Positions 1-64,000 of a DNA stretch of 64,000 bases are shown here, piece after piece. The number at the start of each line of letters is the position of its first letter. Positions within the stretch are counted from its first letter, which is position 1. Below the pieces are notes generated by a model. It was given only the letters and a program-made list of their open reading frames with translations. It did not search any database and had not been told where the DNA came from. This stretch comes from Globisporangium splendens (taxonomy: Eukaryota; Oomycota; Peronosporomycetes; Pythiales; Pythiaceae), in contig VFIW01000029.1 of assembly GCA_006386115.1 (NCBI GenBank), forward strand, positions 1 through 64,000, read 5' to 3'. The translations under genes were made by a program, and so were the position numbers.

Positions 1-208
1 TGTGTGTGTGTGTGTGTGTGTTGCGTATGCATGCGTGCGGGTTGTGTCTGACTGCAGTGTGCGTGTGTGTGTGTGTGTGTGTGTGCGGTGGCGAGCGCGA
101 GAAAAGAAAAGAGAAGAAAGAAAAGAAAAAGAGTAGACAGCACTCGGACTTCCCCGGTGGTCACCCACCCGAGTACTACCCGAGCTTGAGGCTGCTTAAC
201 TTCGCAGA
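1..208. repeat. 5S/tRNA-Ala array, partial unit at window start
   Basis: The window opens in the convergent side of an array unit: a (GT)n tract (1-20), a unique bridge, a second (GT)n tract (about 60-85) and a GAAAA-rich tract (about 100-132), followed by the 3' part of a minus-strand 5S gene. The matching tRNA-Ala lies outside the window. Confidence 0.9.
133..208 (-). pseudogene. 5S rRNA gene 1, 3' part (positions 43-118)
   Basis: The reverse strand reads as the 3' two thirds of a 5S rRNA, with GAAGTTAAGC (box A) and the GGGTGGGTGACC region. The gene is interrupted at 208/209 by SINE 1. Its 5' part lies at 4692-4749, beyond SINE 1 and LINE A1. The fragment keeps all three internal promoter boxes but lacks the 5' arm of helix I. 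Confidence 0.92.
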
Positions 209-507
209 GATTTAAGCCACCAGGACCCGCCACGCCACCCGGAGGTGATGTGGAAGTACAAGTGACTTTGTAACTTAACCCGCGCAGGCCGGGTCCTGTA
301 CCCCTCATTACACTACGGGGCCTTTTTGGCAACGGGGCCTCCCCCACGATGAAGGGCCAGGACACTTATTCAGCGCCCCAGTTGCTCGTCCGCTTAACTG
401 CCTGTCTCCGGTCACACCCGGCTGACGGGTTGGCATCGACGGGAATCGATCCAGTGACCTCCCGGTCCCCAAGCCAGTGTTTGACCACTGACCCAAATGG
501 GATCGGT
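209..507 (-). mobile_element. tRNA-derived SINE, copy 1, in 5S site
   Basis: This is a ~299-bp element on the minus strand. Its 5' end (right side, about 430-507) is tRNA-like, with a box A-like TGGTCAGTGGTC and a box B-like GGATCGATTCC. The anticodon arm does not fold well, so it is not a working tRNA. The body is GC-rich with GGGGCC repeats, and the 3' end reads GGTGGCTTAAATC with no poly(A). It is flanked by TGCTTAACTTCGCAGA at 193-208 and 508-523. The right-hand repeat is at the same time the left repeat of LINE A1. No ORF is present; mobilisation must depend on a LINE. Confidence 0.8.
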
Positions 508-523
508 TGCTTAACTTCGCAGA

Positions 524-1080
524 TAAACAAGTTACATTACACTCTTAGGGGGTGCTTTCCTATTCTCCGCTACCTATACTTATGTGTGGAATATGCAAAT
601 ATGCACTTTTTCTGTGAGGTCCACTATTCGGTTAAGCGAGTATAGTGAAATCAAGTCAAAATGCAAAACCGGTATGACCAGGTTGGACAGTTGCGCCTTG
701 AGTTCTTGGGTGTATGGTGGTGCAGTGGTATGTACCTGGCTTGGGATCCCGGAGGTCGCTGGATCGATTCCGGGTGGGAGCAAAATTTGGGAAAGTCGAA
801 AAAACCGAAAGTTGTGTAGCTTGGGGTAAATGTCGTGTGTAAGCGCTTCTTGGGACTCGAGACATAATCAAGGAACTGGCATATTCCGCTCTACCTTTGG
901 GTAAGTCTCAATAGAGTCAGGCTTGGGGTTTGACGGGTGGAACTTGCCACCACCCATGTATAACTCTGCATGAGCCGTTCCAAGGAGCCGGATGGGATTA
1001 TTCTCTGTGCACGCACGTTCCCGGTTGGCATTCACAGCTTGGTGTAGGCTTCTTCAAATCTTGTCTTCACAACCACTGTA
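524..1080 (-). other. LINE A1 3' UTR with antisense tRNA-like module
   Basis: 557 bp of non-coding sequence between the ORF2 stop and the element's 3' end. On the plus strand, opposite to the LINE, about 712-780 reads as a degenerate tRNA: box A-like GGTGCAGTGGTATGTACC and box B-like GGTCGCTGGATCGATTCC. It resembles the head of the 5S-site SINE, roughly 80% by eye. The extreme 3' end carries no poly(A). Confidence 0.7.
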
Positions 1081-4000
1081 TCAATTAGCACCTTCTTCAA
1101 AGTCATTCGACTCTGTCGTGCTGGTGTCAAAGCCAGCGTCTTGTATCAGCCTCTTTAGCTGACGCAAGGCTAGAGCCGAGTGTCTTTGGCTTTTGACGTG
1201 TAGCTCGTGCTTGTACGCCTGGATGTGGAGCTGGAGAAGCGCTTGTATCCTGGCTTGTGTCTCAACTGAGTTGGGGACTTGGCCGTGGAATCGGATGTCA
1301 TTGCGGTGCATCCATATGCAGCGGGTCACAATGGCTCGCACAAAGTTGAGCACCACAAAGAGGGTGTAGCCGTATTTTTCCTTGGCTTGTGGGGTAGGCT
1401 GGAGACTGGAGAAGTACACGAGGGTTCCCCACGAGAGGTCGCTTGCAAAAGCTCTTTGGAGAGGCTGTAGAAACGGGTCCCATAACCGCGAGGCAAAGGG
1501 ACAAAGCCAGAAGAGGTGCTGAGGGGTCTCGAGGTCTTCACAGTCAAAATGGCAAGTTGTCTTGGCATCTTGGAGGTGCTGGAATCGATAGCCTAGGTGC
1601 AAGGCGTTGTGTTGAAGCCGGTAGAGAAAATCGGCGTAGACTGGGAGGAGGTGTTTGTTCAACTTTAGATCGCGTTTCCAGAAGTCATACCCAGGAGCTT
1701 CCGAGACTCCCAACCGCTGCAACGGCAACGCAGGGGGCTTGGGACACTTGAGCACGTTCCGGATCTTGGCAACCGTGAGGTCTTCTAGGGGGTGCTCTCC
1801 AATGACCCAGTTATGGAAAGCACTTGCAAAGGCTTGACTTGGACGAGGACCGTGGGGTGGGTCACGGAGTACTCGAAGCGCAATATCACAGTCCACGAGG
1901 AAGTTCCTGCAATAGCGTGTGTTGTATGCTCTTGAGTCTCCTGGTTGTTGGATCGCTGTGGCGAGTGCCGCCGGTGTTGGCGTACTACCACAGAGACCGT
2001 ATATGTCTTCTGCCGTGTAGAGCTGGAGCTGGGCGAGTCTCTGCACGAGTGCCGAGGGTCTTGTAGCTAATGTGCGGTCTTGGCTTCCATGTCGTAGTGT
2101 GGCATTGTGCAATAGCGGCATCGACAGTAAGTCGAATTGGCTTGCGCTGACTGGCATCTTGGGTCTCAACTTCGTGTGCCAGACAAACAGCACCTGGTGC
2201 CAGAAGCTGTTGAGAGCGGACCAGCGGTTTTCACGCCGAGTGCTGGCGTGGTTGGGGCTGGTAGTTACTGGGGCGTACAGGATATCGAGGGGTCGGCCCC
2301 ATGGAGTCATAGCCTGCTGAAAGACTTCAACAACAGGGGACACCCAACTGGGAAGCGAGTGATGGCACTCTCGCACACTGTTAACCACACGTACAAGTGC
2401 ATGTACTTGTAGCGCGTTCACAGAGTCTTCTATCTGTGTGAGACCGAGACCTCCTTGGGATCTTGGAGTGTACCACCAGTCTGTGGCCAGGATAGCTGAC
2501 AGTCGGGAGCTGGAAGTGCTGGAGTCACTCAAGAAAGTCGCGATGACACCCTTGATTTGATCTTGAAAACCGGATTGCGGGATATGACACACACTGGCTG
2601 TGTACCAGAGCGTGGGCAGCACAATTTGCTGGAGCAACGCCACTCGGCCGTTCAGAGTCCTTGCGCGGTGCTTCCATACTGCACAACGGAGCTGGATACT
2701 GGCAATGAGGTGGTGCAGCCGATCTGTATTAGAGAGGCGCGGTCCATAACGAATACCGAGAAGCTTGGCTTCACCAGTATTGTCAATGACTTGCACACCG
2801 AGTTGCTGCAGCTGGGTCTGGAGTTCTTGATCTTCATCTGTCCATTCTCGAAAAGGTAGTATGACAGTCTTGTGCGTGTTGAGCTTCATCCCGGCTGCCG
2901 AGCAAAACAATTGGACACGTTGTAGAAACTGGGGTGCAAGAGAGAGATCACTGAGGAGCCCTGTGCAATCATCTGCAAAGCTGATAATTGTGTGGGGTTC
3001 GTCGGAGTGTGGCAACTTGAGACCGTGGGGGTTGAACTGGACTCGGAGGTAGTTCAACAGCGGTTCAATGTAGAGCACAAATAACGCTGGCGAGAGTGGA
3101 TCACCTTGCCGAACTCCTGCTCCCAGTGCGAAATGGGGAAGTGGAGCGCCATTGAAGAGAATCGATACGATCGTGCTTCGAATCATCACTCGGATCCATT
3201 CCCGGAAATTGGGACCAAACCCAAAGTGCCTCAGTGTCATCTCGAGTGCATCCCACACAACACTGTCAAAGGCTTTGGCAAAGTCGAGTAGGAGTGCACC
3301 TGCCATTTCTTGGCATCGTTGGAACAGATGCTGGAGAGCTTGGAACCGGAGATGCGCGTTACGAATGTCACGTCCTGGGACGAAGCCGTATTGATCCGTG
3401 TGGAGCAACTTGGGCAAAATTGACTGTAACCTCTTCGACAGGATTTTCGGTCCGAGCTTGGCATCGATGTTCAATAGCGTGATCGGCCGATAGTTACTGG
3501 GAACACGTCGGTCACCACTCTTGTATAGGAGCGAGATCTGTCCTCTTCTCTGGAACTTGGTCATCTTACCGAGTTGGAATTGAGACGAGTACACCACTTC
3601 GAGTATCTTGCTCCAAAGCTGAATGTCCACGTTGTAGTACGCAAGCGGGAGACCGTCTGGACCTGGGGACTTGTTGGCTGTGGTGTGCTTCAGCGCATAG
3701 TAGAAGTCGCTCGCAGTGAACGGACTATCTAGCATGCGCTGGTCTTCTGTAGTAAGTCTGGTCTTGGTGTGCTGGAGGATTCTCGACAGCTTGAGTGGGT
3801 TCCACTTTGGCTTGGGATGAGAGTACTCACGAGACGGCGAACAATAGACACCACTCCAATACCGGTTGAATTTTTCGCACATAGAGTGCAAGTCTTCTGC
3901 CGATTGCACTGGGATGGTCGTCTTGTGCAGGAGCATTGGGGGTCGGAAGAAATACTTGGTGCACTTTTCGGACTGGTACAGGTCGGAGGCAAATTTTTGC

Positions 4001-4691
4001 TTGGACTTGTGGTGGTCTTCTTCTTCAATTTGGGCTCGCAATTTTTGTTGGAGCGAACTCAGGGTTGCTGAGACTTCTTCAGACGGACTGAGATGCTCGA
4101 GGTGTTGCAGCTGATTGATGCGCACGTGCAGGTCTTCTTTCTCGACTTGTCGCTTGTTCTTCTTGTCGTTGAAAAGCTGGCGTAGGTAAATACAGTCTTG
4201 GCGCTTGTGCTCGTCGAGCAGATGTCCTGGGTTGTATGTCGATGCAATGGTCGGGTCAATTGATTCCGCCAGTTTTATCAGGGACAACTTCAGATATTCT
4301 TGGGCTTCGGGAAGTTCGATGACCCAGCTTGGACATCGCCACGGTGCTCTTGTTCTTGGCTTGAATAGTTCGGAACCGAGGGTGAACTCGATCCCGCAGT
4401 GGTCGGCTTTGTTGGGCTGGTGCTTCCAGTCGTGCTTGAGTTGTTTGAGCTGCCGGTTGAATATATCGGAACTCAATAGGACGAAGTCGATGCGAGCACT
4501 TCGGTTGGGGCTTGTAAACTCGCGAACATGGGGGTTCTGCAGGCGCCATGCATCAAAGAGATTCAGAGCCTGCATCCACTCCAGGAGTTCTTGACGGCCC
4601 TCGCGGCGGGCTCGGTTGTTGGTCTGGGCTTGGTCGAGTTGGGTCGAGAAGACTGTGTTGAAGTCTCCGAGAGCCAAATGTATGGCATTGT
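1081..4691 (-). pseudogene. LINE A1 ORF2, 5'-truncated endonuclease/reverse transcriptase
   Basis: The reading frame is open for about 1200 codons from the 5' truncation to its stop. It keeps the second half of the AP-type endonuclease (LGDFN; IDFVLLSS; DHCGIEF) and the complete reverse transcriptase. RT motifs include SNYRPITLLN, LLLDFAKAFDS, GVRQGDPLSPALF and the catalytic FADDC. It also keeps the C-terminal cysteine/histidine finger CHFDCEDLETPQHLFWLC. The first ~147 residues, with the endonuclease catalytic glutamate, are missing, so this copy cannot be autonomous. The protein is otherwise nearly identical to A2 and A3, which points to recent spread. No start codon of its own is expected. 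Confidence 0.93.
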
Positions 4692-5571: not shown

Positions 5572-5902
5572 TAAACAAGTTACATTACACTCTTAAGGGG
5601 TGCTTTCCTATTCTCCGCTACCTATACTTATGTGTGGAATATGCAAATGTGCACTTTTTCTGTGAGGGCCACTATTCGGTTAAGCGAGTATAGTGAAATC
5701 AAGTCAAAATGCAAAACCGGTATGACCAGGTTGGACAGTTGCGCCTTGAGTTCTTGGGTGTGTGGTGGTGCAGTGGTATGTACCTGGCTTGGGATCCCGG
5801 AGGTCGCTGGATCGATTCCGGGTGGGATCAAAATTTGGGAAAGTCGAAAAAACCGAAAGTTGTGTAGCTTGGGGTAAATGTCGTGTGTAAGCGCTTCTTG
5901 GG
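5572..5902 (-). other. LINE A2 3' UTR, distal part, with antisense tRNA-like module
   Basis: This is the element's 3'-terminal 331 bp, up to the Gypsy TSD (5898-5902). It contains the plus-strand tRNA-like module at about 5761-5827. The rest of the 3' UTR resumes at 14659 and runs to 14884. Confidence 0.85.
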
Positions 5903-6450
5903 TGTAACCGGACACTTCCGAGTTACGCAGCACGGTACGTGTGTGAGGAAGCGTGTGCACGACTTCTCTCAAGGACTCTGTTCCAAGAGCTGTTGCCTTC
6001 TTCCTGCAGTGCAACGATCGGTCACCTATAGATCTCTATAGAGTAACCGTCAATAACTAAAGACTTAGTCAGAGGTAAAAATGGAACTGTTTATTTGTTG
6101 GGGGTTGCCCTTTGCAGGATACCCTGAGTTATCTTTAGTTCACTATCTAGCATAGTGAACCTCCGCTTATTTCAATGTGGACATAAGTGAATGGCTCTGA
6201 ATTGCCGTGTTATTCAATTGGTCTAAAAGCATATAGTTTTAGCCTATGAGAGTCGTGTCTGTGACCGGCCTCTAATCAGAGTAGCTTGGCTACCTTTGTG
6301 GTTCGAGTAAGTGCGGTGAACCTAATGGATCGGCTGCTTTGGTGTTTCTCGTAGCTAAGTACGGAAACTTTAGTTGCATGCGGACTTAGTCCAATGCCAA
6401 CAGATTGAGCTAAGTTGCTGCGGTGCAACTTAGCGTGTGACCCCGTTACA
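5903..6450 (-). repeat. Gypsy 3' LTR
   Basis: A 548-bp terminal repeat, TGTAACCGG...CCGTTACA on the plus strand; its inverted ends TGTAAC/GTTACA are perfect. It pairs with 14107-14653. Confidence 0.96.
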
Positions 6451-6463
6451 CCACCCCCCACCT
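6451..6463 (-). other. Gypsy polypurine tract
   Basis: On the minus strand AGGTGGGGGGTGG lies directly upstream of the 3' LTR, the expected place for the plus-strand DNA primer. Confidence 0.85.
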
Positions 6464-6615
6464 AAAGTGCGAAACACGGGAGTGGTTTCGAAAGAGTGGT
6501 GGCCACGCTACGACGCACGAAGTCGTGGTCAGTATTCTTCGGGAGAGGCACTGCGAACACGCGTGCAAATCTCTCCGAAAAGCATCGCAACATCACAAGT
6601 GTGAACGCACACGTG

Positions 6616-8151
6616 ATGGCGACGAACAAATCGGTGCGCGAAAAGATCGCCCGAAGCGCGAGCGGTCCTGCAGAAGGACTCGTTCAAAGACTGCAGAAGC
6701 TCGGCGCTGAGAAGCGCGAGGCGGCAAGCGCAAAACAACGCGCTGCCGCTGCGGTCACGTCTGCCACGGAAGACGTGAGCATGAGCGACGACGAGTCGGC
6801 TCAATCGAAGACTGCTCCTGACGGTGTCAGTGAGCTGCAATTTGGCGATCTCCCTGCCATCAAGCCGATGAGCAGGGCAAGCGACGCCGATGACGACACG
6901 GCAGTCGACTACCAAGAGTACTCACCCGAGGAAGGGGAGGAAGAGGAAGGCATCACCGTGAGGCGCGACTCCATCGACGAGTGGGTCGAGTATGAGGAGC
7001 TGCGTTACGGGAGCGGTAGCCCCGAACTGCACGAGTTGGAGCGAAATCCCTCGGCAGACGTCTCGATTTATCGGACGGAGGAAGAGAATGACGTCGCAAA
7101 GACTGTCAATGAAAGGGAGAAGGAGGAGGTCATCATTACCAACAATGAGACCGGACTGGAACCACCACCAAAAGGTTCCGTCCATTTTTCGCTTCCCGTT
7201 ATGCCGCCGCCAAAGGAATGGCCGACAGCGAAAACCCCGGCAAATTTACTTGCACGGGCGCGGGTTCCACTCGAGAGGTATTACTCCGAGTTCGCACGAT
7301 GGCGCGAAGCCGATCTGCGAGGACGTGATGGGGCACTGCGCGTGCACCCGATCCCGGTTATCCTTTACGAAGGTGAGACCGAGGATCAATACGAAACCGC
7401 GTTCTTGGCATCAAGAACTGGTGTGAAACGCTTTGGGGCTGCGCGTACATTGGCCACCGATCCTGGGGCACAACGTAGCCAGCGCATGCAATTCGCTGTG
7501 CAGCGCGTACAAAAGTATCGCGAAGCAACAAAGAGTGATGACCGTGCTCGCACGAGTCTCGGTATTAACAAGCGACAGATGGACGAGTCTCACTCACCAT
7601 CAACGCACGCTCAAAAGCGGCGACCATGTCGGGAACGTCCTCGAGGAGGCGCTCAGCAGGCTCCCATGTGCTCTGCGACAAATCGTATCCACGCCACTTC
7701 ACAAGGTAGTGGGTGTTCCCCTTGCGCCGCTGCACACGCAGCAGACGCTCGACATGGTAGTGGCGCTGTCCCTGCTTATCAATCAGCGGGACCGGTGGCA
7801 CCCTACCGCGCTTCAGCATCGGTGGTTGCACCAGATGCGATGGTTCAGATGGTTCACGCGAACGCATCGTCTTTGGGGGTGCTACAGCAAGACGTCCGTG
7901 CCCTTCGCCAGCAATATCTGGACGAGACCTCGCTGTTAAAGCAGAGGGTGACGGCGCTTGAGACGGAGCTGAAGGAAGCTCGTCAGATGCTGGAGGAGTA
8001 CCATGTCCGCGGGAAGAACTTCCACGCGAGGTACGCTCCGCGAGTGAAGACGCTTTTGGAGAGGCACAACGCGCTCGTGTCTCGATGGGCGGCGTCTGAG
8101 CCCCCTGATGAGACCGACGTGCTCCCGCACTGGGATAAGAATCCGCAGTAA
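6616..8151 (+). CDS. Antisense ORF of the Gypsy element, unknown function
   Basis: This 511-codon ORF starts at the first ATG (6616); the frame is open back to a GTG at 6496. It runs opposite to gag-pol. Its last ~195 codons overlap the 3' end of pol (7565-8151), which encodes the integrase-chromodomain linker and the chromodomain. The product has an acidic stretch (EEGEEEEG), a basic middle, and a C-terminal segment (about residues 420-500) rich in heptad-like leucines that should form a coiled coil (LLKQRVTALETELKEARQML). I recognise no catalytic motif. The first ~950 bp lie outside pol and have no other coding explanation. It could be an accessory protein translated from an antisense transcript, a captured host fragment, or a chance ORF over the overlap. 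Conservation in related elements would decide. Confidence 0.55.
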   Translation: MATNKSVREKIARSASGPAEGLVQRLQKLGAEKREAASAKQRAAAAVTSATEDVSMSDDESAQSKTAPDGVSELQFGDLPAIKPMSRASDADDDTAVDYQEYSPEEGEEEEGITVRRDSIDEWVEYEELRYGSGSPELHELERNPSADVSIYRTEEENDVAKTVNEREKEEVIITNNETGLEPPPKGSVHFSLPVMPPPKEWPTAKTPANLLARARVPLERYYSEFARWREADLRGRDGALRVHPIPVILYEGETEDQYETAFLASRTGVKRFGAARTLATDPGAQRSQRMQFAVQRVQKYREATKSDDRARTSLGINKRQMDESHSPSTHAQKRRPCRERPRGGAQQAPMCSATNRIHATSQGSGCSPCAAAHAADARHGSGAVPAYQSAGPVAPYRASASVVAPDAMVQMVHANASSLGVLQQDVRALRQQYLDETSLLKQRVTALETELKEARQMLEEYHVRGKNFHARYAPRVKTLLERHNALVSRWAASEPPDETDVLPHWDKNPQ

Positions 8152-11100
8152 CGTCATGGTAGCGTTTCAGCAAACCCACGTAGAACACGGGGTGCGTTGC
8201 CATTCGCGTTGGGAGATCGAGCTTGTAATTCAAGTCTCCAATCTTCTCCACAACAGTGTACGGCCCGATGAATCGTGGCAACAACTTGCTCCCGCTGGGG
8301 AGCGTTGTGACTGCATCGTTTGGTAGGTTTTTAATGCTCAATAGCACTTTATCACCCACACAAAACGTTTGTTTGTTCTTTCTACCCGATTTATCGGCGT
8401 AGAGCTTCTGCTTGTATTGCGCAGCAGCTAGTTGGTCGCGTACGCGACGCAACAATGCTGCGCGCTCATCGACAAATTGCCGCGCTGCCGCGACGGCTTT
8501 GTCTTGCTTTTTCGTTGCTCTCGCAGCGCGTGCTGCAGAGAGATCTATTTCTGCGCCGGTGGGTGGCACCGCGCGCTCTCCCTTTCGTGGCTGACGCTCG
8601 CACGAGCAGTCGCCTGATTCTGTCTGAGACTGGCTATTTTTGGCATGAGTACCGTAACTCGGTACCGTGGGAGATCGATCTATAGGGACACGAGTACCGT
8701 AACTCGGTACCGTGGGAGATCGATCTATAGGGACACGAGTACCGTAACTCAGTACCGTGGGAGATCGATCTATAGGGACACGAGTACCGTAACTCGGTAC
8801 CGTGGGAGATCGATCTATAGGGACACTAGTACCGTAACTCAGTACCGTGGGAGATCCATCTGTAGGGACACGAGTACCGTAACTCAGTACCGTGTTTTTC
8901 TCTCCAAATGTGGAACGCGTGCCGTCCGGTAAGACCGTGACAGATTCGAAGTGCGACCGCACAGGCGGCGCATCGCGCGCGTCCACGTGAGCGGTTAACG
9001 CCACGTCTGGTGACGGAGGTCGCGCACTCGCATCGAGCGCAGCGAGTTGCCCTCCCACCGCAGAATATTCGACGCCCTCAAACTGAGTGGCGGGTATGTG
9101 CGAGTGCCGCAGCGAGTTAAAATAGAACGGAGTCACGGTCGTAGAGGCGTGCTCGCTGCTATTTATAGCAAACTCGGCGTACGGCAGCCAGCGGCTCCAG
9201 TCGCGGGGATGATCGACAGCGATGCTGCGAAGAATATCCTCGACGACACGGTTTACGCGCTCGGTTTGCCCGTCTGTCTCGGGATGATCGGCAGTGGACA
9301 TCGCCAGATCTGTGCCGAGCAGGCGGAAGAGTTCGCGCCAAAAGGCAGCGGTGAAACGCGGGTCCCGGTCTGATACAATAGACTCGGGCAAGCCGTGATA
9401 GCGGAACACGTGCTCTAAAAATAGGCACGCCGTCTCTTGGGCAGTGACATGCTTGCGCACAGGCGCAACATGCACCATTTTGCTCAGTCGGTCGACGAAC
9501 ACGACGACGCCTGTGTTGCGCGCCTTGTCTTCCGGGAAACCGAAGACGAAATCCATGCTGACCGACTTCCAGCAATCTTGCGGAATCGGCAGCGGATGCA
9601 GCGGCGCTTTGTTCTTGCCCGCAGGCTTCACGCGCTGGCACTGTTCGCATGAACGTACATAATTGGCCACCCATTTGTACTGGTGTGGCCACCAAAACAC
9701 ATTGGACACTTGCAAGAAGGTCTTTTCACGCCCCAGATGCCCACTCGCTGGCGCATCGTGAAACTCATGAAGGATCGAAAGTTTCAGATCCTGGTCATGC
9801 GGTACATACACACGCGGGTAATCGAAGTTGGACAGTTGATGCCACAATAACCCGTCGTGATAACTAAACCGAGCAAGCTTTGACTCGAGTTTGGCAGGCA
9901 ATGACTCTTTCGACGAGCCGTCAAAGTGAGCAATCAACAAGCGACATTCATCGTCCTTTGGATAAAGCGACTGAATATTGTCCTTGAGCTTTGTTTGCAC
10001 TCGACTGATGCTCAGATGCATGAGATCAGGAGCGCGCTCCGAACACAGAGCGTCGGCGCTGTTGTCAACGCTCGACTCGTAATCTGGACGGCGCGAAAGC
10101 GCGTCCGCCAGAACATTTTCCTTTTCCGGCTTGTATTCGACCCGAAAGTTGAACTCGGAGAAGAATGCAAGCCATCGCGCCATTCGCTGCGACAGATGGG
10201 GAGAATTAATCGCGGTTCGCAAGGACGCGTGATCCGTGTACACAACAAACGGTGTCGCACCCAAAAGGTGGACCCTGAACTTCAAGAGAGCGTACTTGAT
10301 CGCAAGCAGCTCCTTGTCGTGCACAGGATAGTTCTTTTCAGCTGCTTTAAGCAGTCTGCTTTGGTATGATACGACGCGCTCATGGCCGTCATCATCCTTC
10401 TGCATCAGCGCACAGCCGATTGCAAAATCGCTGGCATCGCACACGACACTGAAAGCTTTCGTGTGGTCCGGCAACGCCAGGACAGGAGCGCGAACAAGCG
10501 ACTCCTTCACGTCAATGAATGCATTCATGACATCGCTGGTCCAGTCCCATTCGACATCCTTTTTCAAGAGATGCGTGAGTGGACGGACTCTCGCCGCATA
10601 GTTGTGGCTGTACTTGTGCAAATAGTTTGCCAAGCCAAGCCACTTGCGCAAATCCTTGACGTTCTTTGGGATCGGCCAGTCGGCGATCGCCTTGATCTTC
10701 TCTGGGTCCGCGCGGACTCCAGCTTTGCCAACATAGCACCCCAGGATCGGAATCTCTGAGGCGCCAAAGATGCACTTCTTCAGGTTGCAATACAGACTGT
10801 TGTCTCGTAAGCACTGCAACACTGAGCGCAAATGTCTCTTGTGCACGTCAACGGCTCTGAGATCTCCTTCGGCACGACTGTGCACGAAGATGTCATCGAA
10901 GTAGCTCGGTGCGTACGCACGATGAGGACGCAGAAGATGCGTTACCAGACGATTGAACGTCGCTGGTGCATTCTTCAGACCTTGCGGCATAACGAGCCAC
11001 TCCCACAGCATTCCGCTGGGTGTGCTTACTGCCGTCAAGGGAACGTCACTCTCTCGCATGAGGATCTGATAGAACCCATCCATCAGATCCAATGCTGAGA

Positions 11101-14104: not shown

Positions 14105-14106
14105 GT

Positions 14107-53254: not shown

Positions 53255-53665
53255 AATGGTTCTGTTACTGTGATATGTCGTCATCACGCACTTTCCCAAA
53301 TGTGCACTTCGCAGTCTCACCTGTGAATTCGTGACATTGAGTAACAATCTTTTTTGCTGCACCCCTTGCCTCTCCTCCTTTGCTCGGCTTGCAAGCCTCC
53401 TGTTCTTGTACATTATGCGTCGCTATATCCACACACGCACTCATGTCGTCAAGAAGGCGCGTGAACGTGAATACGCTTTCTGTGCGCCAATTCGCTTGTG
53501 GTACTGCCAAATATCTCGTGCGAATATGCAGTGCATGTGTGTGTGTGTGTGTGTGTTGCGTATGCATGCGTGCGGGTTGTGTCTGACTGCAGTGTGCGTG
53601 TGTGTGTGTGTGTGTGTGCGGTGGCGAGCGCGAGAAAAGAAAAGAAAGAAAAGAAAAGAAAAAGA

Positions 53666-53783
53666 GTAGACAGCACTCGGACTTCCCCGGTGGTCACCCA
53701 CCCGAGTACTACCCGAGCTTGAGGCTGCTTAACTTCGCAGAGCGAACGGGATACGGTGTTCTCAGCCTAAGATGGCCGTCTAC
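53666..53783 (-). rRNA. 5S rRNA gene 19, contiguous
   Basis: 118 nt, reference sequence. Confidence 0.95.
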
Positions 53784-54043: not shown

Positions 54044-54116
54044 GGGGATGTAGCTCAAATGGTAGAGCGCTCGCTTAGCATGCGAGAGGTACTGGGATCG
54101 ATACCCAGCTTCTCCA
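54044..54116 (+). tRNA. tRNA-Ala(AGC), canonical copy
   Basis: Canonical 73 nt; shortened upstream GT run (tatatagtgtatgat). Confidence 0.96.
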
Positions 54117-54913: not shown

Positions 54914-54927
54914 GGGGATGTAGCTCA
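54914..54927 (+). pseudogene. tRNA-Ala stub at LINE B2 3' junction
   Basis: GGGGATGTAGCTCA followed at once by gttgaaagttg, exactly as at 23987-24000. The intact gene is at 62259. Confidence 0.93.
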
Positions 54928-55446
54928 GTTGAAAGTTGTCTATATTACTAGAATTAGACGGAGTGACTACTCAATCTACCTAGCGTTGACAGTTTCTACC
55001 ATAAATATAATCCTACACTTGTATCTATGATTTTATAATTTATATAATTTTTGAGATTTTTTGTGAGAATAGTCCGTATGGACCAAAGTCGGGTATATAG
55101 TGGGACCTCTATTCCCTTATTTTGGGAACTTCTGAAGTCGACAAACCAAGCCAAGCCCAGTCAAGCCGGTCCAAGTCGAGGGAAGCAGACCCAAGTCAAG
55201 TCAAGCCGAGCCATCTCGCCAAATCCAAGCCGTGCGACTTCTCCTCCTGAGACTACTGCTGTCTCACCCGGAGCCCAGGGGAACGTGAGGGCCCCGAAGC
55301 CGGGTTCGAGCGCGGAATCAATGGAGGGAATTCGTTTGGTAATGGCCGAGGGAGGTGGTTTTGGTGTTGACGACGCTTGTGGTGCAAGTCCAGTTTGAAG
55401 CGTGGCGGTCGGTGTCGTCTGCACGCTTGAGTGCTGAGGAGTGCTC
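54928..55446 (-). other. LINE B2 3' UTR
   Basis: 519 bp. The first ~200 bp (AT-rich) match B1 almost base for base, apart from one extra T near 55060. The inner half has diverged moderately. Confidence 0.85.
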
Positions 55447-58400
55447 TTAACGTTCCCGAATTTGGAACATCGTCGGGTGAGCTGCCAGGAAGTCGTCGAA
55501 TGCCTGGAGCGTCCTCATCTTCGTCACCACTCTCTTGAGCGACCGTAAGTCTTCGTCTTCATATCTTCTTCTCATGTTGTGTCGGATGTGTGCACTCACA
55601 GTTGTGTAGATGACTGCCATTGCAGGGGTCACCGGTGTGGGCAGTCTTCCGTCGAACAAGCACCGATTCCGATCCGTCCAGAGGAAGTGAAGGGCCACTG
55701 CTCGAAGAGTGTGCCACACATCGCAGACGATGTCTTCGCATTCCTTCCACTCTTCGTGAATCGACGGCTTCCGCGCCAACGCGATCACCGTCCACGTTGG
55801 CTGGCGCCGAAAGAATGGCCGCATCAGAAGCAACAGGTGCTCCCACACTCGAGAGGCAAGCGCGCACTCGAAGAACAAGTGCTGCTCGGTCTCGACTGCG
55901 TTGCAGCCGTCCTGGATGCAGTACGTGATGCCTGGGTCGGTGTCTCGCAGAAAGAAGAACCGAGAGCGCACAGGAAGCAGTCGGAACGCCACGCGAAACT
56001 GCAAGTCCTCAAAGACTGGAAGCAGGAGCTGGCGAAGGCGCTTGCCGTACTTCACGAACCGTTTCACTTCGTCCTCGTCGACGCTCTGGCTGTGGAGCGT
56101 CATTGGGTGGCTTTTCGAAGGCGGTGTTGGTTTCCACACCAGACGAAGAAGCGCGCTTCTCGGGATGGCCGGAAACAGGCATGTCTTCGTGCCATTGGTG
56201 CAACCAAGGTGCGGGAGAAGACGAAGACTTGAGTCAACTTGCAGTGGTAGTGTTCCCAGTCGGTCCACGATCTGTGTCGCTTCCTTGTACAACGACCGAA
56301 GCCATTGGGACTGGATGCCGACAGAGATGTGAGCCAGCGTGCGATCAAGGTGAGCCGACACAAAGTCGCTGCAGCTCGGCCATGCCATCCCACCACGCAT
56401 AAAGTCCGCCAGTGATCGCAAACCGAAGACCCTCGAGATGTGGAGCCGGAAGCTTCGTTGCGGCTCGGGACACATACCAAGGCACCTCCGATGAGCGTTG
56501 ACGGTTGCAGTCCGAGGGGTCTGTTCGTAGTGGAGGTGCGCATCTGCATGGAACCAAATCGGCTGAGCGAGGCACTCCCTCACGCCTTCGTCCGGCGGAA
56601 GGTTGCGCCACGTGATCTCCCAGCTGATCGTGTACCACAGCGTCCACGATGCTCTCCACCATCCTGAAGTCTTCTGCCACTTGATCATCGAGCCATGCCG
56701 CAGCGGCGATACTGTGAGAAAGTCGAGCGCTCTGCACCTTCCGACGGGTGGTAGAACAGACTTGAGCATCTCACAGCTCGCTGTCGTCCAGTTTCTCTCC
56801 TCGGGAGTCGTGGCTGTGCGCACAAACTGAAGCAGCAGCTGGAGTCGTTGCCGCTTCAGATGAGCTTCGATGCTCGGGATGCCCAGACCACCTTCGCTGC
56901 GTCTCAAGTAGAGAAACTCCTTCGGGATCAGCTGGATGTGTGTGTCTTCTCGGTCGTGCTTCCGACTCAGGACAAACTTGTTCAACATCGACTGCCACCT
57001 CTTCACGACTTGCCGAGGGACAACCACATGCTGTGTGTAGTGCCACAAGCGAGACAGGACCATTGTCTGGGCTACAAGAAGTCGCCCTCGCAGTGTTCTT
57101 GCTCGCCTGTACCACGCCTTGAAGCCGTCGTAGAAGCGGTCATCGAGGAAGGACACAATGGTGTCATTGACTGGAGACTGGCTGAACGGAACACCAAGGA
57201 ACTTCACCGACTCTGCACGACCCAGCACTTGGACGCCAGTCAGGCGAGGGCAGTCTTGGTTGCGGTTCAGTGCCATCAGCATCGACTTGCTGAGGTTGAG
57301 TTTCGCACCGGATCCCTTGCAGTAGACATCCACGAGCTCCAGTTGTGCTTGGACACTCGGGATGGAACCGCCAAGAAGCGTGGTGTCGTCTGCGAAGAAC
57401 ATGCTGGTGGCAGTGTGGTCCGCGTTGAGGCACACACCGTATTCCTCGTGCGACCGCAGCATGTTCCCAAGAGGCTCAATTGCCAGAAGGAACAACAAGG
57501 CAGACAGAGGATCACCCTGTTTGACACCTCGCGTCGGATGAAGCGCGGGCTGGATGTTCTGGTTGATGAGAAGGTGTGCTTGTGGCCGCGTGTACAGAAG
57601 CCTCACCCACTGGATAAACGCAGAGCCGCATCCCATCTTCTCAAGCACTCGGAACATGTAGTCCCAGTTCACACGATCGAAAGCCTTCTCGAAGTCCAAG
57701 AACATCGCGTACGCTTCGTCGTCGAGGTTCGTGATCAAGTCTTGGAGATCAGCGAGGAAGCGAACGTGATGGTGGATCGACCTGCCTTTCACGAATGCCT
57801 TCTGGTCCGTGTGGATGAGACTGCACACAACGGACTGGAGTCGGAACGTGAGAGTCTTGGACAGAGCTTTCACGTCGACTGGCATCAGCGTGATCGGTCG
57901 GTAGTTGCCAGGCTCGGCTCTTGATCCCTTCTTGTAGAGGAGCACGACCGCTGACTTGCGTTGGGATGGCAAGAGAGTGCCACGACGAAGCTGGTCGTTG
58001 AAGACAATGCTGAGGCATTCGCCGAACACATCGGGAGCGACCTGGTAGAAGCCAGCCGTCAAGCCGTCCATACCAGGTGCCGAGCTCGCCTTCATGTGCC
58101 TGATCGAGTCCGCAAGGTCGGAAGCCGTCACAGGAGCATTCAAGATCTCCCGATCCAGTTCTGACAGCACTCGGATGATCGAGTCAACGAGCGTTTGCTG
58201 TTTGGCTTCGTCTGGTGGAGGAGCTGTTCCTGCTGGACTGTCGGGATCTCCCATCTCGGATCCCCAGTGCTCGAGGAAACGGAGAGATATCTCTTGAGGG
58301 TTCGACGAGACACTTCCATTCGGTGTCACGACCTCTTCAATCGATACCTTCCTCAGACACGTGTCCAACGGACGGAAGAAGTGTTTGGTCGATTTCTCGG

Positions 58401-59517
58401 AGTTGGCTGCCTGGAAGTCAAACGCATTGTCTTGGTTGTACTGGCTGGTTCTGGTGACTGTCTCCTTGTAAATCTTCATCGCGTCGTCGAACTGGCTGCG
58501 GTTGTTCTCGGTGGAAGACTCACGGTATCGAGCAGCAGCCTGGTCGAGCGAAGCACGAGCCTCTTCAACCGCGGCTGTGTCTTGCATGCGGAGCTTCTTC
58601 TGAACGTCTTGCAGCTGGCTCTTGATTCTCGTCTTCCACCTCTCCCAGATTTGGCCAGGATTGGTGGAGCCACGGAGCTGGTCTCGGACTGCTTCCGCTT
58701 CCTTCTCGATCGCGGACACAACCACTGGGTACTCCAGCAGGTAACGGGGAAACTTCCAGTACCCGCGTCCATGCAGCTGGGAGCCGGTCTTGAAACTCAC
58801 GCAGTGAGCAAGGTGGTCGCCAGCGTTCTGGGGAACGAAGTACTTGGAGTCGTCGTAGAAGCGTTCATAGAACGGCTCCGAGAGAAGAATATAGTCCAAC
58901 CGGTTCTTGCGAGGCAAGGGACCAGTGAAGACTCGCTTCGTGTCATGGTGGACACGCCACGCATCCACAACGCCAAGACGAGCAAGCCACGCAAGGCAGC
59001 TCGAGCGCGCCGGGTCGTAGCGCAGATCTGGAGACGACGAGTCGAGTCTGGGATCCAACGGAGTGTTCAGATCTCCCAACACAAGGTGTGTCGCTTGATC
59101 TTCGAACCCTTCGGTGGACAGACTCGAGAAGAATTGTTGCTTTTCCTGTCGGTCCACAGGAGCGTACACGTTGTGAATGTAGACGGGAGCGTCGCTCACC
59201 ATCATCTTCACTACGAGGTACCGACCTGGGACGGCGAGGCTTGGTTGTTCCGCAGCCGTTTCGAAACCCGGCACGTCAGAGCGAAGAACGGTGAGAACAC
59301 CGCCACTGCGTCCGCGTGTTGGTCGATCCAACTGGGAGTTGGGGTCGTTCACGAAGACTTGGTGCTTGAAGCTTGAGTCGAGGTGAAACTTGAAGGTCGA
59401 GAGGTGTTGCTTGTCGCTGAACTTGGTTTCTTGGACACATGATATCGAGTGCTTCGATACCATGTTGTCGATAAATAGGTGACCGTTGTCTTTGATGCCA
59501 TTAGTGTTCACGGTCAA
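55447..59517 (-). CDS. LINE B2 ORF2: AP endonuclease, reverse transcriptase, zinc finger
   Basis: 1,356 codons counted from a TTG, which is GTG in B1 and so not a conserved start. The endonuclease shows VNTNGI, CVQETK, HNVYAPVD, LGDLN, RLDYILLSE and GDHLAH. The RT shows GNYRPITLMPVD, MFLDFEKAFDRVNWD, GVKQGDPLSALLF and FFADDTTLLGG. The C-terminal finger is CIQDGCNAVETEQHLFFEC. All catalytic motifs are kept while many other residues differ from B1, the pattern of purifying selection. The frame is open upstream through AKPTSTQPSWNNISVLTVN, which aligns with AKPTPSQTTWSNVSVVSVN in B1, so translation probably enters from ORF1. Confidence 0.95.
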   Translation of the reverse strand: MTVNTNGIKDNGHLFIDNMVSKHSISCVQETKFSDKQHLSTFKFHLDSSFKHQVFVNDPNSQLDRPTRGRSGGVLTVLRSDVPGFETAAEQPSLAVPGRYLVVKMMVSDAPVYIHNVYAPVDRQEKQQFFSSLSTEGFEDQATHLVLGDLNTPLDPRLDSSSPDLRYDPARSSCLAWLARLGVVDAWRVHHDTKRVFTGPLPRKNRLDYILLSEPFYERFYDDSKYFVPQNAGDHLAHCVSFKTGSQLHGRGYWKFPRYLLEYPVVVSAIEKEAEAVRDQLRGSTNPGQIWERWKTRIKSQLQDVQKKLRMQDTAAVEEARASLDQAAARYRESSTENNRSQFDDAMKIYKETVTRTSQYNQDNAFDFQAANSEKSTKHFFRPLDTCLRKVSIEEVVTPNGSVSSNPQEISLRFLEHWGSEMGDPDSPAGTAPPPDEAKQQTLVDSIIRVLSELDREILNAPVTASDLADSIRHMKASSAPGMDGLTAGFYQVAPDVFGECLSIVFNDQLRRGTLLPSQRKSAVVLLYKKGSRAEPGNYRPITLMPVDVKALSKTLTFRLQSVVCSLIHTDQKAFVKGRSIHHHVRFLADLQDLITNLDDEAYAMFLDFEKAFDRVNWDYMFRVLEKMGCGSAFIQWVRLLYTRPQAHLLINQNIQPALHPTRGVKQGDPLSALLFLLAIEPLGNMLRSHEEYGVCLNADHTATSMFFADDTTLLGGSIPSVQAQLELVDVYCKGSGAKLNLSKSMLMALNRNQDCPRLTGVQVLGRAESVKFLGVPFSQSPVNDTIVSFLDDRFYDGFKAWYRRARTLRGRLLVAQTMVLSRLWHYTQHVVVPRQVVKRWQSMLNKFVLSRKHDREDTHIQLIPKEFLYLRRSEGGLGIPSIEAHLKRQRLQLLLQFVRTATTPEERNWTTASCEMLKSVLPPVGRCRALDFLTVSPLRHGSMIKWQKTSGWWRASWTLWYTISWEITWRNLPPDEGVRECLAQPIWFHADAHLHYEQTPRTATVNAHRRCLGMCPEPQRSFRLHISRVFGLRSLADFMRGGMAWPSCSDFVSAHLDRTLAHISVGIQSQWLRSLYKEATQIVDRLGTLPLQVDSSLRLLPHLGCTNGTKTCLFPAIPRSALLRLVWKPTPPSKSHPMTLHSQSVDEDEVKRFVKYGKRLRQLLLPVFEDLQFRVAFRLLPVRSRFFFLRDTDPGITYCIQDGCNAVETEQHLFFECALASRVWEHLLLLMRPFFRRQPTWTVIALARKPSIHEEWKECEDIVCDVWHTLRAVALHFLWTDRNRCLFDGRLPTPVTPAMAVIYTTVSAHIRHNMRRRYEDEDLRSLKRVVTKMRTLQAFDDFLAAHPTMFQIRER

Positions 59518-59557
59518 GACACTAATGTTGTTCCACGAGGGTTGAGTCGAGGTTGGT

Positions 59558-62119
59558 TTAGCAACTGACAGCGAGGCTGCCTGCTACCATCACCACACTG
59601 CCATCAACCACCTGGAGCTTCAAGACCGACGCGTCATCGGGGTAGTAGTCTTCGAGGTCACGAAGAGCTTCCAGGTCCTCAAGAATGCGTCCTTGCCACT
59701 GCACTTCGGTCCATTGCTTCATGCACAACGCTCCAAGCTCTGAGCGAAGCAGCATCAACAGCGTGTTGGGATGCAGCAGACGGGTGTGGTGTGCAGGGAT
59801 CCACGGCACCGGCATTCCAGTCAGGTACTGGATCCAGTGGTCATTCGCGAATATCGTCGGGGCGATGGACATCAGCATGAGCTCAAAGAGACTCAGTGCC
59901 TTCGTCGCTCGAGACAGTTCTCGGACTGGCTCCGACGTTGTCCACCACTTTGCAGCGGTGTGGAACAGATCCCCTCGCGTCGACGGAACCTTGGTCTTCA
60001 TGAACTTCTTCCACTTCGTGCTGAACGTCGTGTCTTCACTTGGGTCGGAAGCACTCAAGACGCGGTTGATCATGTGGAGCTGAGCGAGCTCCTGCATCTC
60101 GTGTCCAGTCCCTGCCATCTTGAGCGACAGAGCACTGTTGAACGCGAGCGGGTTCTCGACAGCGTGTTTGGTCACATGATCAGCGTTGGTGGCGTTCGCA
60201 ACGATCTTGCACGCAGCGTCAACCTTCGTGTCGGCGTGAGTCAATCGGTCTGGGAGAACGCTGAGAAGAGCAGTGTTCTCATCGCTCGCCATCGACTCGG
60301 CCACTTCCACGATGTGCGAAGCTTTCGGTGACTTTCTCACTTTCGTGTGGTGCTTCTCGATGAAGAAAGCCGATTCCTTGGACTCCTTCAACGCTTCTGG
60401 TCGCTTGACTTCAGTCGGCAAAACTTGGTATCGAATGCCGTACTTCTTGTCCGCGGTCACTTTCTTCGCTTCGAAAGCCACCTCCACCGATTGGAGTACG
60501 TCGAAGTAGTTGGACGTTGCGATTCCGTCAAGAGGCTGCGGCTGTTGCTTGGCAACCATGTTGGCGAAGTCAGCGCCGTTCCTCGATCGCTTCTTGTTGT
60601 TCTTCTTGGTCACGGGTTGGAACCCATCGCTGTCTCCGTTGGTCAAGAGAAGGGGCTGCTGCGGACCAACTCGAGGGCTGGCAGGCGGAGTGATCTTCCC
60701 GATTGATCCGTCGAAGGTGCTCACGGATAAACCCGAGGTAGTGCTGCCAGGTTTTCTCGGCACAATCGGACCAGAAATCTGTCCATGCTGAGCTCCTCGC
60801 TGGGGCTGCGAATCTCCATTCACTTGTCCCTTGGCCGCACTCGGCGGCGAAGGTTGCTTCGGATTGCCTGCCGCTTGGGCATACGATTTCGCAGAGCTTG
60901 GTATGTTTGGCTTCTGACTTCTGAGGACTGGCTCAGACATCGGGTCAAGGAGCGGAAACGCACCACCAGGCACTCCAAGCTCAAGAGCTTGTGCAGAGCG
61001 ATAGCCGAAAGGCAAACGCTCCGAGCGGAACGGCGCATTCTTGCCGTGGGCAGGATGAAGCTTGTTGTCGAAGATCACCTGATCACAGACACCGTTGTTG
61101 ATGATCAGCGCGCTTGGACACGAACTTGACAAGAAGTAGACACGCCACGTCGCTGACGTTACACCCGTTGTGAGGTTCACTTCGCGGAAGGTGTCGTACA
61201 CAGGCTTGCACCCAAGAACGAACAAACGTTCAAGGATGAGGTCCGTGTCCGTGTCCGAGTCGACGTTCGAGATGTCGAGGTAGTACTTGTCGCCGAGGAT
61301 GTCGAATTCCTTGAAGGTGAAGACCCCTCCAAGGATATTCACCTTGGTGCGCTCCAAACGCACGCAGGCATCCTTCGACTTGACCTTGACGCGCAAGTTG
61401 CCACCAGGAAGCTTGGAGATCTGGCCGATCTCGAAGCGCTTGTACAGCTCTTCGAGTGCTGCGTTGCCGTGACCGGGGCTCGCAAGCGACGCCAAGATCT
61501 TTTGCACGGGAGTCTTCGCGAGGGCCCTGCCAGTCTCGATCACCATGTCATACTTGGCTCTCGGGAGCTGGTAGGGTCGCGCTTGCTCCAATCGTGACGA
61601 AATGTTGGACCAGTCGCCACCAGCAGCATACTGGCGCTCAATGGCCTCGATGTCGACAGCGAGGGGCTTCGGAGTTTCCACGCGACGACGAGAGGCATCA
61701 ACGACGGCTCGATCGCGGCGGAGGTCTTCTTGCAGGCGGAGGACTTCAGCCATGCTCAAGCGCGTGTCCGCGGCAGGAGCCGAAGAGGCGGGGAGAGGCG
61801 GCACCGAATTGCCAGCATGGCCACCGGCACCAGTCGAGTTGGCAGGCGGAGGCAACATCGGGATGTCACTAGAGCCGTCTTCATTCGACATGCCCGAAGT
61901 CACCGCAGGGTCCATCGGCTCGTCCACTTTTTCTTCCGAATCAGTGGAAGCGCCGACGGCTGGGTCGGTCTCATGAGGGTGACGGCCGGAAACAGGGTCC
62001 GTCGCTGAGAGCGCAAGCACATTTTTGCTTGGGCGAGGATCGGAGGGATCGAAATTTTCGGACGGGGATGGGCCGACAGTGGTACCAGTCGAGGTACTGG
62101 GTGCGGACCCAGAAATCAT
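59558..62119 (-). CDS. LINE B2 ORF1, probable RNA-binding protein
   Basis: 853 codons from the first in-frame ATG (MISGSAPSTS). The frame is open back to 62248, but without ATG. The ATG matching the B1 start (62172-62174) is now in another frame that closes after 67 codons, so B2 either has a small indel at its 5' end or uses the internal ATG. The rest matches B1: a proline/serine-rich N-terminus, RRM-like stretches (GNLRVKVKSKDACVRLERTK; KYYLDISNVDSDTDTDLIL), a low-complexity linker and a conserved helical C-terminus. It ends TGC TAA as in B1. Confidence 0.83.
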   Translation of the reverse strand: MISGSAPSTSTGTTVGPSPSENFDPSDPRPSKNVLALSATDPVSGRHPHETDPAVGASTDSEEKVDEPMDPAVTSGMSNEDGSSDIPMLPPPANSTGAGGHAGNSVPPLPASSAPAADTRLSMAEVLRLQEDLRRDRAVVDASRRRVETPKPLAVDIEAIERQYAAGGDWSNISSRLEQARPYQLPRAKYDMVIETGRALAKTPVQKILASLASPGHGNAALEELYKRFEIGQISKLPGGNLRVKVKSKDACVRLERTKVNILGGVFTFKEFDILGDKYYLDISNVDSDTDTDLILERLFVLGCKPVYDTFREVNLTTGVTSATWRVYFLSSSCPSALIINNGVCDQVIFDNKLHPAHGKNAPFRSERLPFGYRSAQALELGVPGGAFPLLDPMSEPVLRSQKPNIPSSAKSYAQAAGNPKQPSPPSAAKGQVNGDSQPQRGAQHGQISGPIVPRKPGSTTSGLSVSTFDGSIGKITPPASPRVGPQQPLLLTNGDSDGFQPVTKKNNKKRSRNGADFANMVAKQQPQPLDGIATSNYFDVLQSVEVAFEAKKVTADKKYGIRYQVLPTEVKRPEALKESKESAFFIEKHHTKVRKSPKASHIVEVAESMASDENTALLSVLPDRLTHADTKVDAACKIVANATNADHVTKHAVENPLAFNSALSLKMAGTGHEMQELAQLHMINRVLSASDPSEDTTFSTKWKKFMKTKVPSTRGDLFHTAAKWWTTSEPVRELSRATKALSLFELMLMSIAPTIFANDHWIQYLTGMPVPWIPAHHTRLLHPNTLLMLLRSELGALCMKQWTEVQWQGRILEDLEALRDLEDYYPDDASVLKLQVVDGSVVMVAGSLAVSC

Positions 62120-62258
62120 GGCTGGTGCGACAGTCGAGGGTTGGGGGAGGGTTGGGGTAGCTGGACTTTTCCATGGGGAAACTTGAGGCTGAGAGGGCTT
62201 GAGAGCTTGGAGGGTGTTCTTGGATTCAACTTGAGGGGTAGCCGGCAAATTGAGAAGT

Positions 62259-62331
62259 GGGGATGTAGCTCAAATGGTAGAGCGCTCGCTTAGCATGCGA
62301 GAGGTACTGGGATCGATACCCAGCTTCTCCA
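62259..62331 (+). tRNA. tRNA-Ala(AGC), intact copy at LINE B2 5' end
   Basis: Canonical 73 nt, beginning with the right target duplication. As at 31278, LINE sequence replaces the upstream spacer. Confidence 0.96.
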
Positions 62332-63126: not shown

Positions 63127-63199
63127 GGGGATGTAGCTCAAATGGTAGAGCGCTCGCTTAGCATGCGAGAGGTACTGGGATCGATACCCAGCTTCTCCA
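63127..63199 (+). tRNA. tRNA-Ala(AGC), canonical copy
   Basis: Canonical 73 nt. Confidence 0.96.
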
Positions 63200-63557
63200 A
63201 ATGGTTCTGTTACTGTGATATGATCGTCATCAACAGCACTTTCCCAAATGTGCACTTCGCAGTCTCACCTGTGAATTCGTTGACATTGAGTAACAATCTT
63301 TTTGCTGCACACCTTGCCTCTCCTCCTTTGCTCGGCTGCAAGCCTCCTGTTCTTGTACATTATGCGTCGCTATATCCACACACGCACTCATGTCGTCAAG
63401 AAGGCGCGTGAACGTGAATACGCTTTCTGTGCGCCAATTCGCATGTGGTACTGCCAAATATCTCGTGCGAATATGCAGTGCATGTGTGTGTGTGTGTGTG
63501 TGTTGCGTTGGCGAGCGCGAGAAAAGAAAAGAGAAGAAAGAAAAGAAAAGAAAAAGA

Positions 63558-63676
63558 GGAGACAGCACTCGGACTTCCCGGTGGTCACCCACCCGAGTAA
63601 TACCCGAGCTTGAGGCTGCTTTAAACTTCGCAGAGCGAACGGGATACGGTGTTCTCAGCCTAAGATGGCCGTCTAC
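63558..63676 (-). pseudogene. 5S rRNA gene 22, degenerate
   Basis: Changes: ggagacagc at the helix I 3' arm, cttcccggtgg, gagtaatac, and gctgctttaaacttcgc, which breaks box A and the LINE A target. The unit also lacks the usual GT-rich block upstream (63500-63510). Confidence 0.75.
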
Positions 63677-63938
63677 ATCATATCACATATTTATATACTA
63701 CTCATGCATCAAACCCTAGCTGCACACTCATTTCTTTGCTTCGAGGTAGAGTGGATATTGGTATATTGGTGTCGCGCAGTGGCATCGTGCGTGGTTCGTG
63801 GCGCGCATGGTGTGATAGATGGGGTTGTGGGTGTCAGAGGTGGGGTGTGAGTGGCTCGTTGATGGCGTATGTGTTGTAGGGAGCGATATGGTGTGTGTGC
63901 GAGTTTGTTATTGTGTGTGTGTATATAGTGTGTGTGAT

Positions 63939-64000
63939 GGTGATGTAGCTCAAATGGTAGAGCGCTCGCTTAGCATGCGAGAGGTACTGGGATCGATACC
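63939..64000 (+). tRNA. tRNA-Ala(AGC) variant, cut by window end
   Basis: 62 of 73 nt are present. It starts GGTGATG, so the G3 needed for the G3:U70 alanine identity pair is T. The 3' acceptor strand is outside the window. Confidence 0.8.

Follow-up and report, generated by a model that had tools for sequence, protein, structure and literature searches.

Mutsu, Keno, and Dewa are animal long interspersed nuclear elements (LINEs) of the Tx1 clade. They are located at multicopy RNA genes, with Mutsu of zebrafish using 5S (PMC3706591, PMC11202950), Keno, which has an APE-like endonuclease, using U2 (PMC4640811), and Dewa using the spacer of a tRNA-Leu array. Non-long-terminal-repeat (non-LTR) retrotransposons inside tRNA genes are described as well, namely NeSL-1_TV (tRNA-Pro), LIN15_SM (tRNA-Arg), and LIN25_SM (tRNA-Glu) (PMC4640811), Dp_NLTR-A is reported to sit 2–6 bp upstream of the mature tRNA (PMC5006619), and in the U2 arrays of Phytophthora, whole U2 genes are described upstream of Utopia insertions (PMC4640811). 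Here we report on a 64,000-nucleotide stretch of DNA from the oomycete Globisporangium splendens (the window; positions 1–64000 of the 441,217-bp contig C121), in which a tandem array of 5S and tRNA-Ala(AGC) genes harbors the retrotransposon families LINE A, LINE B, and LINE C together with a short interspersed nuclear element (SINE). These elements were analyzed in the window and in the whole assembly of this one species (53.3 Mb, 195 contigs).

Very probably, the elements belong to an oomycete clade of L1-like non-LTR retrotransposons with a LINE A and a LINE B branch, whose insertion sites are single bonds within conserved regions of genes for structural RNAs. Like LINE A and LINE B, Mutsu, Keno, and Dewa are site-specific LINEs of multicopy RNA genes, but they are found in animals at one kind of gene each, and the sources consulted do not describe them as targeting box A of different tRNA isotypes. 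The NeSL and LIN elements are placed among the families with a restriction-like endonuclease and are each named for one isotype, whereas LINE B has an APE-type endonuclease and is found at tRNA genes for at least 10 amino acids. The dictyostelid elements TRE5/TRE3 and NLTR-A/B resemble LINE B in accepting every kind of tRNA gene, in living in a compact genome, and in sparing the gene, and the 2–6 bp of Dp_NLTR-A is close to the 0–1 bp between LINE B and the tRNA. However, they use windows outside the gene, whereas LINE B enters after tRNA nucleotide 14 and duplicates tRNA 1–14, and NLTR-A/B carry an RNase H after the reverse transcriptase (RT), for which no match was found in open reading frame 2 (ORF2) of our elements at an E value of 1. 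Utopia shares the host group, the oomycetes, with LINE A and LINE B and, with LINE B, the whole target gene beside the insertion, but as described it has a restriction-like endonuclease, targets U2 instead of tRNA and 5S genes, and belongs to another RT lineage. The Dada DNA transposons also use exact sites inside tRNA and snRNA genes (PMC3706591), but these are no retrotransposons, and a DDE transposase and short duplications are reported for them. Among the titles, abstract openings, and passages of open-licence PMC papers that were consulted, none described a LINE with an APE-type endonuclease that uses box A in a range of tRNA isotypes, which is weak evidence of novelty as Repbase and most subscription papers lie outside this literature. 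What looks new is that a single bond in box A is targeted in tRNA genes of different isotypes and that the gene is exactly repaired. The preliminary description of this DNA had seen the novelty in two lineages sharing one composite unit; this sharing is real, but it is incidental and needs no special mechanism, because the array simply holds both targets.

In the window, LINE B occupies two tRNA-Ala sites, both times flanked by TGGGGATGTAGCTCA (2/2) and antisense to the tRNA gene, as had been stated. Copy 1 spans 24001–31277 on the minus strand, including its own leading A at 31277, and copy 2 spans 54928–62258 on the minus strand; the two are 77% identical at the DNA level despite lying in one tRNA-Ala array. 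At one end of each copy, there is a severed copy of tRNA-Ala 1–14 (23987–24000 and 54914–54927, plus strand), and at the 5' end there is a tRNA-Ala gene (31278–31350 and 62259–62331, plus strand; RF00005, 57.4 bits), which is whole, as 57.4 bits is the top tRNA score in the window.

Beyond the window, LINE B-like ORF2 sequences were found on many contigs, a lower bound with 34 of 605 candidates scored. The view that LINE B is specific for tRNA-Ala was rejected, since the family is found at the homologous point of many tRNA isotypes; the first loci already had genes for tRNA-Thr, -Lys, -Met, -Ile, -Phe, -Asn, and others hit at the same point. Two related lineages thus do use different exact points of one unit, as had been described, but LINE B does not own tRNA-Ala, and its copies are scattered outside tRNA-Ala but not outside box A. 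Exact copies of the 14-base 3' end of LINE B occur 41 times in the genome, and all were read; 38 of the 41 run directly into TGAGCYA, the complement of tRNA positions 8–14. The 3'-end bond is thereby placed after A14 of the tRNA sense strand (TRGCTCA^R), within box A. A looser set of 3' ends comprised 59 places, 53 of them at box A; of the other six, those on C96, C151, and C157 look like chance word matches, and the rest are the three off-target ends on C99, C100, and C170.

The 5' ends gave the same picture. A pattern with up to three mismatches matched 106 places in the genome and none when reversed as a control. Among the 94 places that were read, 71 adjoin a tRNA gene, 14 adjoin tRNA 1–14 followed by the 3' end of another element, four adjoin 5S, three adjoin the 5S duplication with a LINE A end (in a chain of elements on C63), and two lie elsewhere. 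In 57 of the 71 tRNA junctions, the box A nick is exactly 14 nt plus one base away. ARAGORN named 60 of the 94, covering 10 amino acids and 13 anticodons (Met 13, Ala 13, Thr 12, Phe 7, Ile 6, Asn 5, and Arg, Leu, Ser, and Lys 1 each); these counts refer to the LINE B family as a whole, with subfamilies pooled. The class of 71 was defined by a loose motif and consists of the 60 genes called by ARAGORN and 11 judged by eye, namely five Tyr-like genes with an intron (one of them broken), two Gly-CCC, one Leu-CAA, one Met/Ile hybrid, and two degenerate genes.

Read along the LINE strand, the order is the complement of the whole tRNA gene, the LINE from 5' to 3', the complement of tRNA 14–1, and the upstream flank of the tRNA. 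At the position that separates the element from tRNA nucleotide 1, the LINE strand has an A in all 94 cases and in all families, although the base of the target itself differs from A in 24 of the 53 box A 3' junctions. The leading A (T on the tRNA strand) is therefore the element's own, and the duplication proper comprises 14 nt, tRNA 1–14. Thus, the 15-bp tRNA-Ala site of the preliminary description was exact as to the point of insertion and one base too long as to the duplication. As the duplication consists of tRNA 1–14, the neighboring tRNA gene is rebuilt whole, with LINE B pointing away from it, so that the picture of two genes simply being attacked fits LINE A, which splits 5S, but not LINE B.

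In the 14 stacks of elements, both ends were captured by the strict pattern in 11 cases, and the gap was 15 bp (14 plus the A) in 11 of 11. We rejected the use of these stacks as proof that the hybrid site of tRNA 1–14 and a LINE end is targeted again: the order of insertion cannot be read from them, because a second hit in a whole tRNA gene yields an identical layout. No B box was found near the hybrid sites within 300 bp in LINE B at two mismatches. Mimicry of the D loop was considered for the 3' end of LINE B, which reads GTTGAAAG on the tRNA strand, but the resemblance is no more than suggestive, and mimicry is not claimed here. Hybrid tRNA genes were also seen beside elements, with a Met 5' part and an Ile body (C35:84330; L069, L124) or with an Asn 5' part, at least to position 17, and a Met body (C162:1696476; L112). 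They may stem from element RNA carrying tRNA sequence from an old site or from gene conversion.

The second target is 5S. The best-kept LINE A copy of the window (6982 bp, 37066–44047, minus strand), which was delimited by its junctions and by comparison with other copies, is flanked on both sides by TGCTTAACTTCGCAGA, a 16-bp duplication of 5S positions 43–58 (37050–37065 and 44048–44063, minus strand). LINE A lies in the sense direction relative to 5S, in line with the preliminary description, and its insertion leaves 5S 1–58 on one side and 43–119 on the other, and hence no whole 5S gene. Two further LINE A copies lie on the minus strand of the window, one in 5S with its ORF2 in two frames (5572–21316) and a 5'-truncated one (524–4691); the latter is stacked on a SINE, and the insert 210–4691 therefore represents two elements at a single 5S site and not one element. 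LINE C (1479 bp, 51385–52863, minus strand) is probably 5'-truncated and is the only copy found in the whole assembly. The 297-bp SINE occupies the 5S site at 210–506, 22190–22486, 23370–23666, 45774–46070, 47820–48116, 49009–49305, and 50197–50493, always on the minus strand. LINE C and the SINE are flanked by TGCTTAACTTCGCAGAG, which is one base longer than the LINE A duplication; this extra base may belong to the target or to the element. The common 16-bp site that had been proposed for the three elements thus holds, apart from this additional base. Both the 5S and the tRNA site had also been said to cover box A. For tRNA, this is correct, with the nick after A14. In 5S, where we take box A to lie at about positions 50–64, the duplication 43–58 overlaps it, but the priming nick lies before it.

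When up to three mismatches were allowed, the LINE A 3' end matched 23 places in the genome. The eight on C121 are all at the 5S site, seven adjoining 5S and one adjoining a 5S piece after a SINE. The ten on C63 are consistent with LINE A derivatives lined up as a chain at the 5S site, four of them being read as 5S sequence; the first 3' end adjoins half a 5S gene, and each of the other nine lies exactly 16 bp after a 5' end. The remaining five are LINE C and places on C165, C140, C123, and C178, the matches on C123 and C178 being left out of the site reading. LINE A is thus supported as a 5S-specific element, a single copy being clearly off target. For the SINE, 15 matches were found genome-wide, of which 13 are full copies on C121, all at the 5S site (13/13). 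Since no 3' tail common to the SINE and LINE A or C was found by BLAST, the driver of the SINE was deduced from the shared 5S site alone. A separate observation is that the 3' part of LINE A (window positions 37259–37330) contains an antisense tRNA-like stretch that resembles the SINE head (positions 30–65) over 36 bp with 89% identity.

Both LINE B copies of the window encode an ORF2 with an APE-type endonuclease (PF03372) and an RT (PF00078) above the Pfam cut-offs (copy 1, 1360 aa, 24518–28600; copy 2, 1356 aa, 55447–59517), preceded by an ORF1 of 850 aa without a Pfam match in copy 1 (28641–31193) and an ORF1 frame of at most 896 aa with an uncertain start in copy 2 (59558–62248). LINE A encodes an ORF2 of 1349 aa (37623–41672) with PF00078 above the cut-off and an ORF1 of 622 aa without a Pfam match (41674–43542), all frames lying on the minus strand. 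The nearest solved protein in the PDB is human L1 ORF2p for both ORF2 proteins, and a database entry named Pollike protein, partial [Globisporangium splendens] is 97% identical to LINE A ORF2. A restriction-like endonuclease had no Pfam match in ORF2 at an E value of 1, with no dedicated model tried. An ORF2 with an APE-type endonuclease and RT, insertion at an exact site of a multicopy gene, and a target duplication characterize these elements as site-specific APE-type non-LTR retrotransposons (L1/Tx1-like).

LINE D, a relative of LINE A with 37% identity, was found on C58 (33214–39847) and C175 (L043–L046, L121). It lies antisense in 18S rDNA (Rfam RF01960), a gene of RNA polymerase I (Pol I), at a stretch that we presume to be the 530 loop. 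The C58 copy has the duplication CACCAGACTTGCCCTCCA on either side, and the C175 copy shows it at its 3' end. In an RT tree of 50 hand-chosen rows (46 of 161 proteins found plus four from this genome), 30 rows of oomycete and environmental proteins form one clade (100/99), which splits into LINE A plus D (100/100) and LINE B (100/100) as sister clades. The tree has several long branches, its root is for drawing only, and there is no labelled Tx1 sequence among its rows. At the protein level, LINE B homologs are present in Plasmopara, Peronospora, Aphanomyces, and Lagenidium, and a search of contigs from viruses and prokaryotes gave none. The tRNA site of LINE B is also occupied by short elements, about 694 bp in length (L016:8904–9597 on C188; L124 at C35:84300–85900). 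They match LINE B only over the first ~35 and the last 20–25 bases and have unrelated middles, which suggests that they are non-autonomous riders on the LINE B machinery.

Several observations weigh against the view of these elements as one site-specific, L1-like clade. Three of the 41 LINE B 3' ends (C99, C100, and C170) are outside tRNA and 5S genes, two of the 94 5' ends (C46 and C151) are at neither, and 14 of the 71 tRNA junctions are off by at least one base. The match of LINE A to the endonuclease family PF14529 reaches 25.8 bits and thus stays slightly under the cut-off of 27.4 bits. One off-target LINE A copy with its own duplication is present on C165, and a full SINE with a different duplication lies off-site on C131; a doubtful LINE A-like end on C140 and a partial SINE match on C171 were likewise counted against 5S specificity. 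Accordingly, the expectation that each family occurs only at its own site holds for LINE A and the SINE on C121 and has these exceptions elsewhere. The off-target LINE A on C165 (L019) and the SINE relative on C171 (L049) are both located at TCTGGTAGCACTTTGC, within sequence common to both loci, which is perhaps a secondary target in another repeat.

The precise junctions, their occurrence at many isotypes, the complete tRNA gene that stays beside the element, and the RT tree are direct observations, and they suggest the following course of insertion. LINE B would enter many tRNA genes in box A after A14, with its other end joining at tRNA nucleotide 1, and LINE A, LINE C, and the SINE would enter 5S at one bond in the sense direction, thereby splitting the gene. 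ORF2 itself would read the site in the DNA and nick after A14. Target-primed reverse transcription is established for LINEs in general, and the element RNA would most likely be copied from the nick in this way. The LINE proteins would also move the SINE and the short elements.

The element starts add a further aspect. AATTTGC is present within the start stretch of each family, and the LINE B starts together with the last target bases read [C/G]CACTTC-TC-AATTTGC. This matches in length and spacing the oomycete core promoter block, which is described as INR (YCAYTYY), a 2-nt gap, and FPR (MWTTTNC) (PMC3599244). Of the 94 starts, 23 fit the INR in full, 58 differ from it at one base, and 13 differ at two; the FPR fits in 93 of 94, a number that is not independent, as the search pattern itself contains the FPR. 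Judged from these motifs, the conserved element start (ACTTYYCAATTTGC) and the last target bases may together form an INR+FPR core promoter. A wider scenario, which we regard as tentative but quite possible, is that one old oomycete clade split as its endonuclease was re-aimed at the conserved cores of several structural-RNA genes, with LINE B turning to the box A of most tRNA genes, LINE A and LINE C to 5S, and LINE D to 18S. The tRNA would be repaired by the duplication of 1–14, and its first bases would complete the promoter, so that insertions would be harmless and transcribable, the gene could be hit again, and short elements would ride along. If true, there would be an endonuclease/RT system in nature whose target is one bond within a motif common to most tRNA genes and which leaves the genes whole, and it would be a lead toward DNA insertion at harmless sites. 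With targets in tRNA, 5S, and 18S genes within a single clade, the way in which target choice evolves among LINEs would then also become open to a direct test.

As it was in principle conceivable that the RNA polymerase III (Pol III) machinery leads LINE B to tRNA genes, as has been proposed for TRE5-A through binding of ORF1 to TFIIIB, with the endonuclease then cutting a preferred box A base, we weighed this explanation against targeting by ORF2. The Pol III machinery is common to all tRNA isotypes, the LINE A target 5S is a Pol III gene as well, and the Dictyostelium elements TRE5, TRE3, and NLTR-A are described as choosing tRNA genes of all kinds (PMC5911963, PMC5006619). However, a single bond rather than a window was used in 38 of 41 cases, and the sister lineage holds LINE D in a Pol I gene. 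Both facts speak against such guidance, which we therefore consider a serious but rather unlikely explanation.

Quite improbable is the view that the apparent specificity goes back to a few old insertions that became numerous when the tRNA and 5S arrays were amplified. The genes do lie in tandem arrays, some copies are near-identical, and the C63 chain, with its regular step of about 1.49 kb, may have been amplified. Yet across many contigs, tRNA genes of at least 10 isotypes have elements at the same bond, this site is used by full elements as well as by short and truncated ones, and the two copies in one tRNA-Ala array are only 77% alike. As diverged copies (77–99% identity) share the site, they cannot represent one amplified insertion. 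Assembly artefacts in this repetitive region would be a concern, as LINEs that are almost identical make a tandem array difficult to assemble, and the sequence of strain rgcb-1 is a PacBio and Illumina hybrid draft. It is based on 10.2 Gb in 0.7 million PacBio reads (PMC7163027), however, which by division gives a mean read of about 14.6 kb and thus exceeds the 7.3-kb element, and the junctions with proper duplications recur on many contigs. This recurrence shows that the junctions are not due to chance, and artefacts are highly improbable.

The 5S/tRNA-Ala(AGC) unit that had been described was confirmed by Rfam, ARAGORN, and unit BLAST. The array fills the window (1–64000) with units of about 870 bp, in which 5S on the minus strand alternates with tRNA-Ala(AGC) on the plus strand, and extends past it to about C121:146.5 kb. 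ARAGORN detected 19 tRNA-Ala(AGC) genes in the window; an intact example is at 54044–54116 (plus strand; RF00005, 57.4 bits; ARAGORN). Of the 22 5S copies, 12 lack an insertion at the site, 10 of these being accepted by Rfam (an intact example is at 53665–53783, minus strand; RF00001, 100 bits). The other 10, starting at 132, 5495, 22112, 23292, 36989, 45696, 47742, 48929, 50119, and 51307, are broken at one identical place, LINE A accounting for three of them (in one case as a truncated copy stacked on a SINE), LINE C for one, and the SINE by itself for six. The oomycete thus retains a 5S array in which 10 of 22 window copies are broken. A Ty3-type LTR retrotransposon with a chromodomain is nested in the 3' part of the LINE A at 5572–21316 (5903–14653); its LTRs of about 548 bp are 97.4% identical, and it is flanked by the 5-bp duplication TTGGG. 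Elsewhere in the assembly, tRNA-Ala and tRNA-His genes are arranged head to tail with zero spacer (L001, L005; C114, C122).

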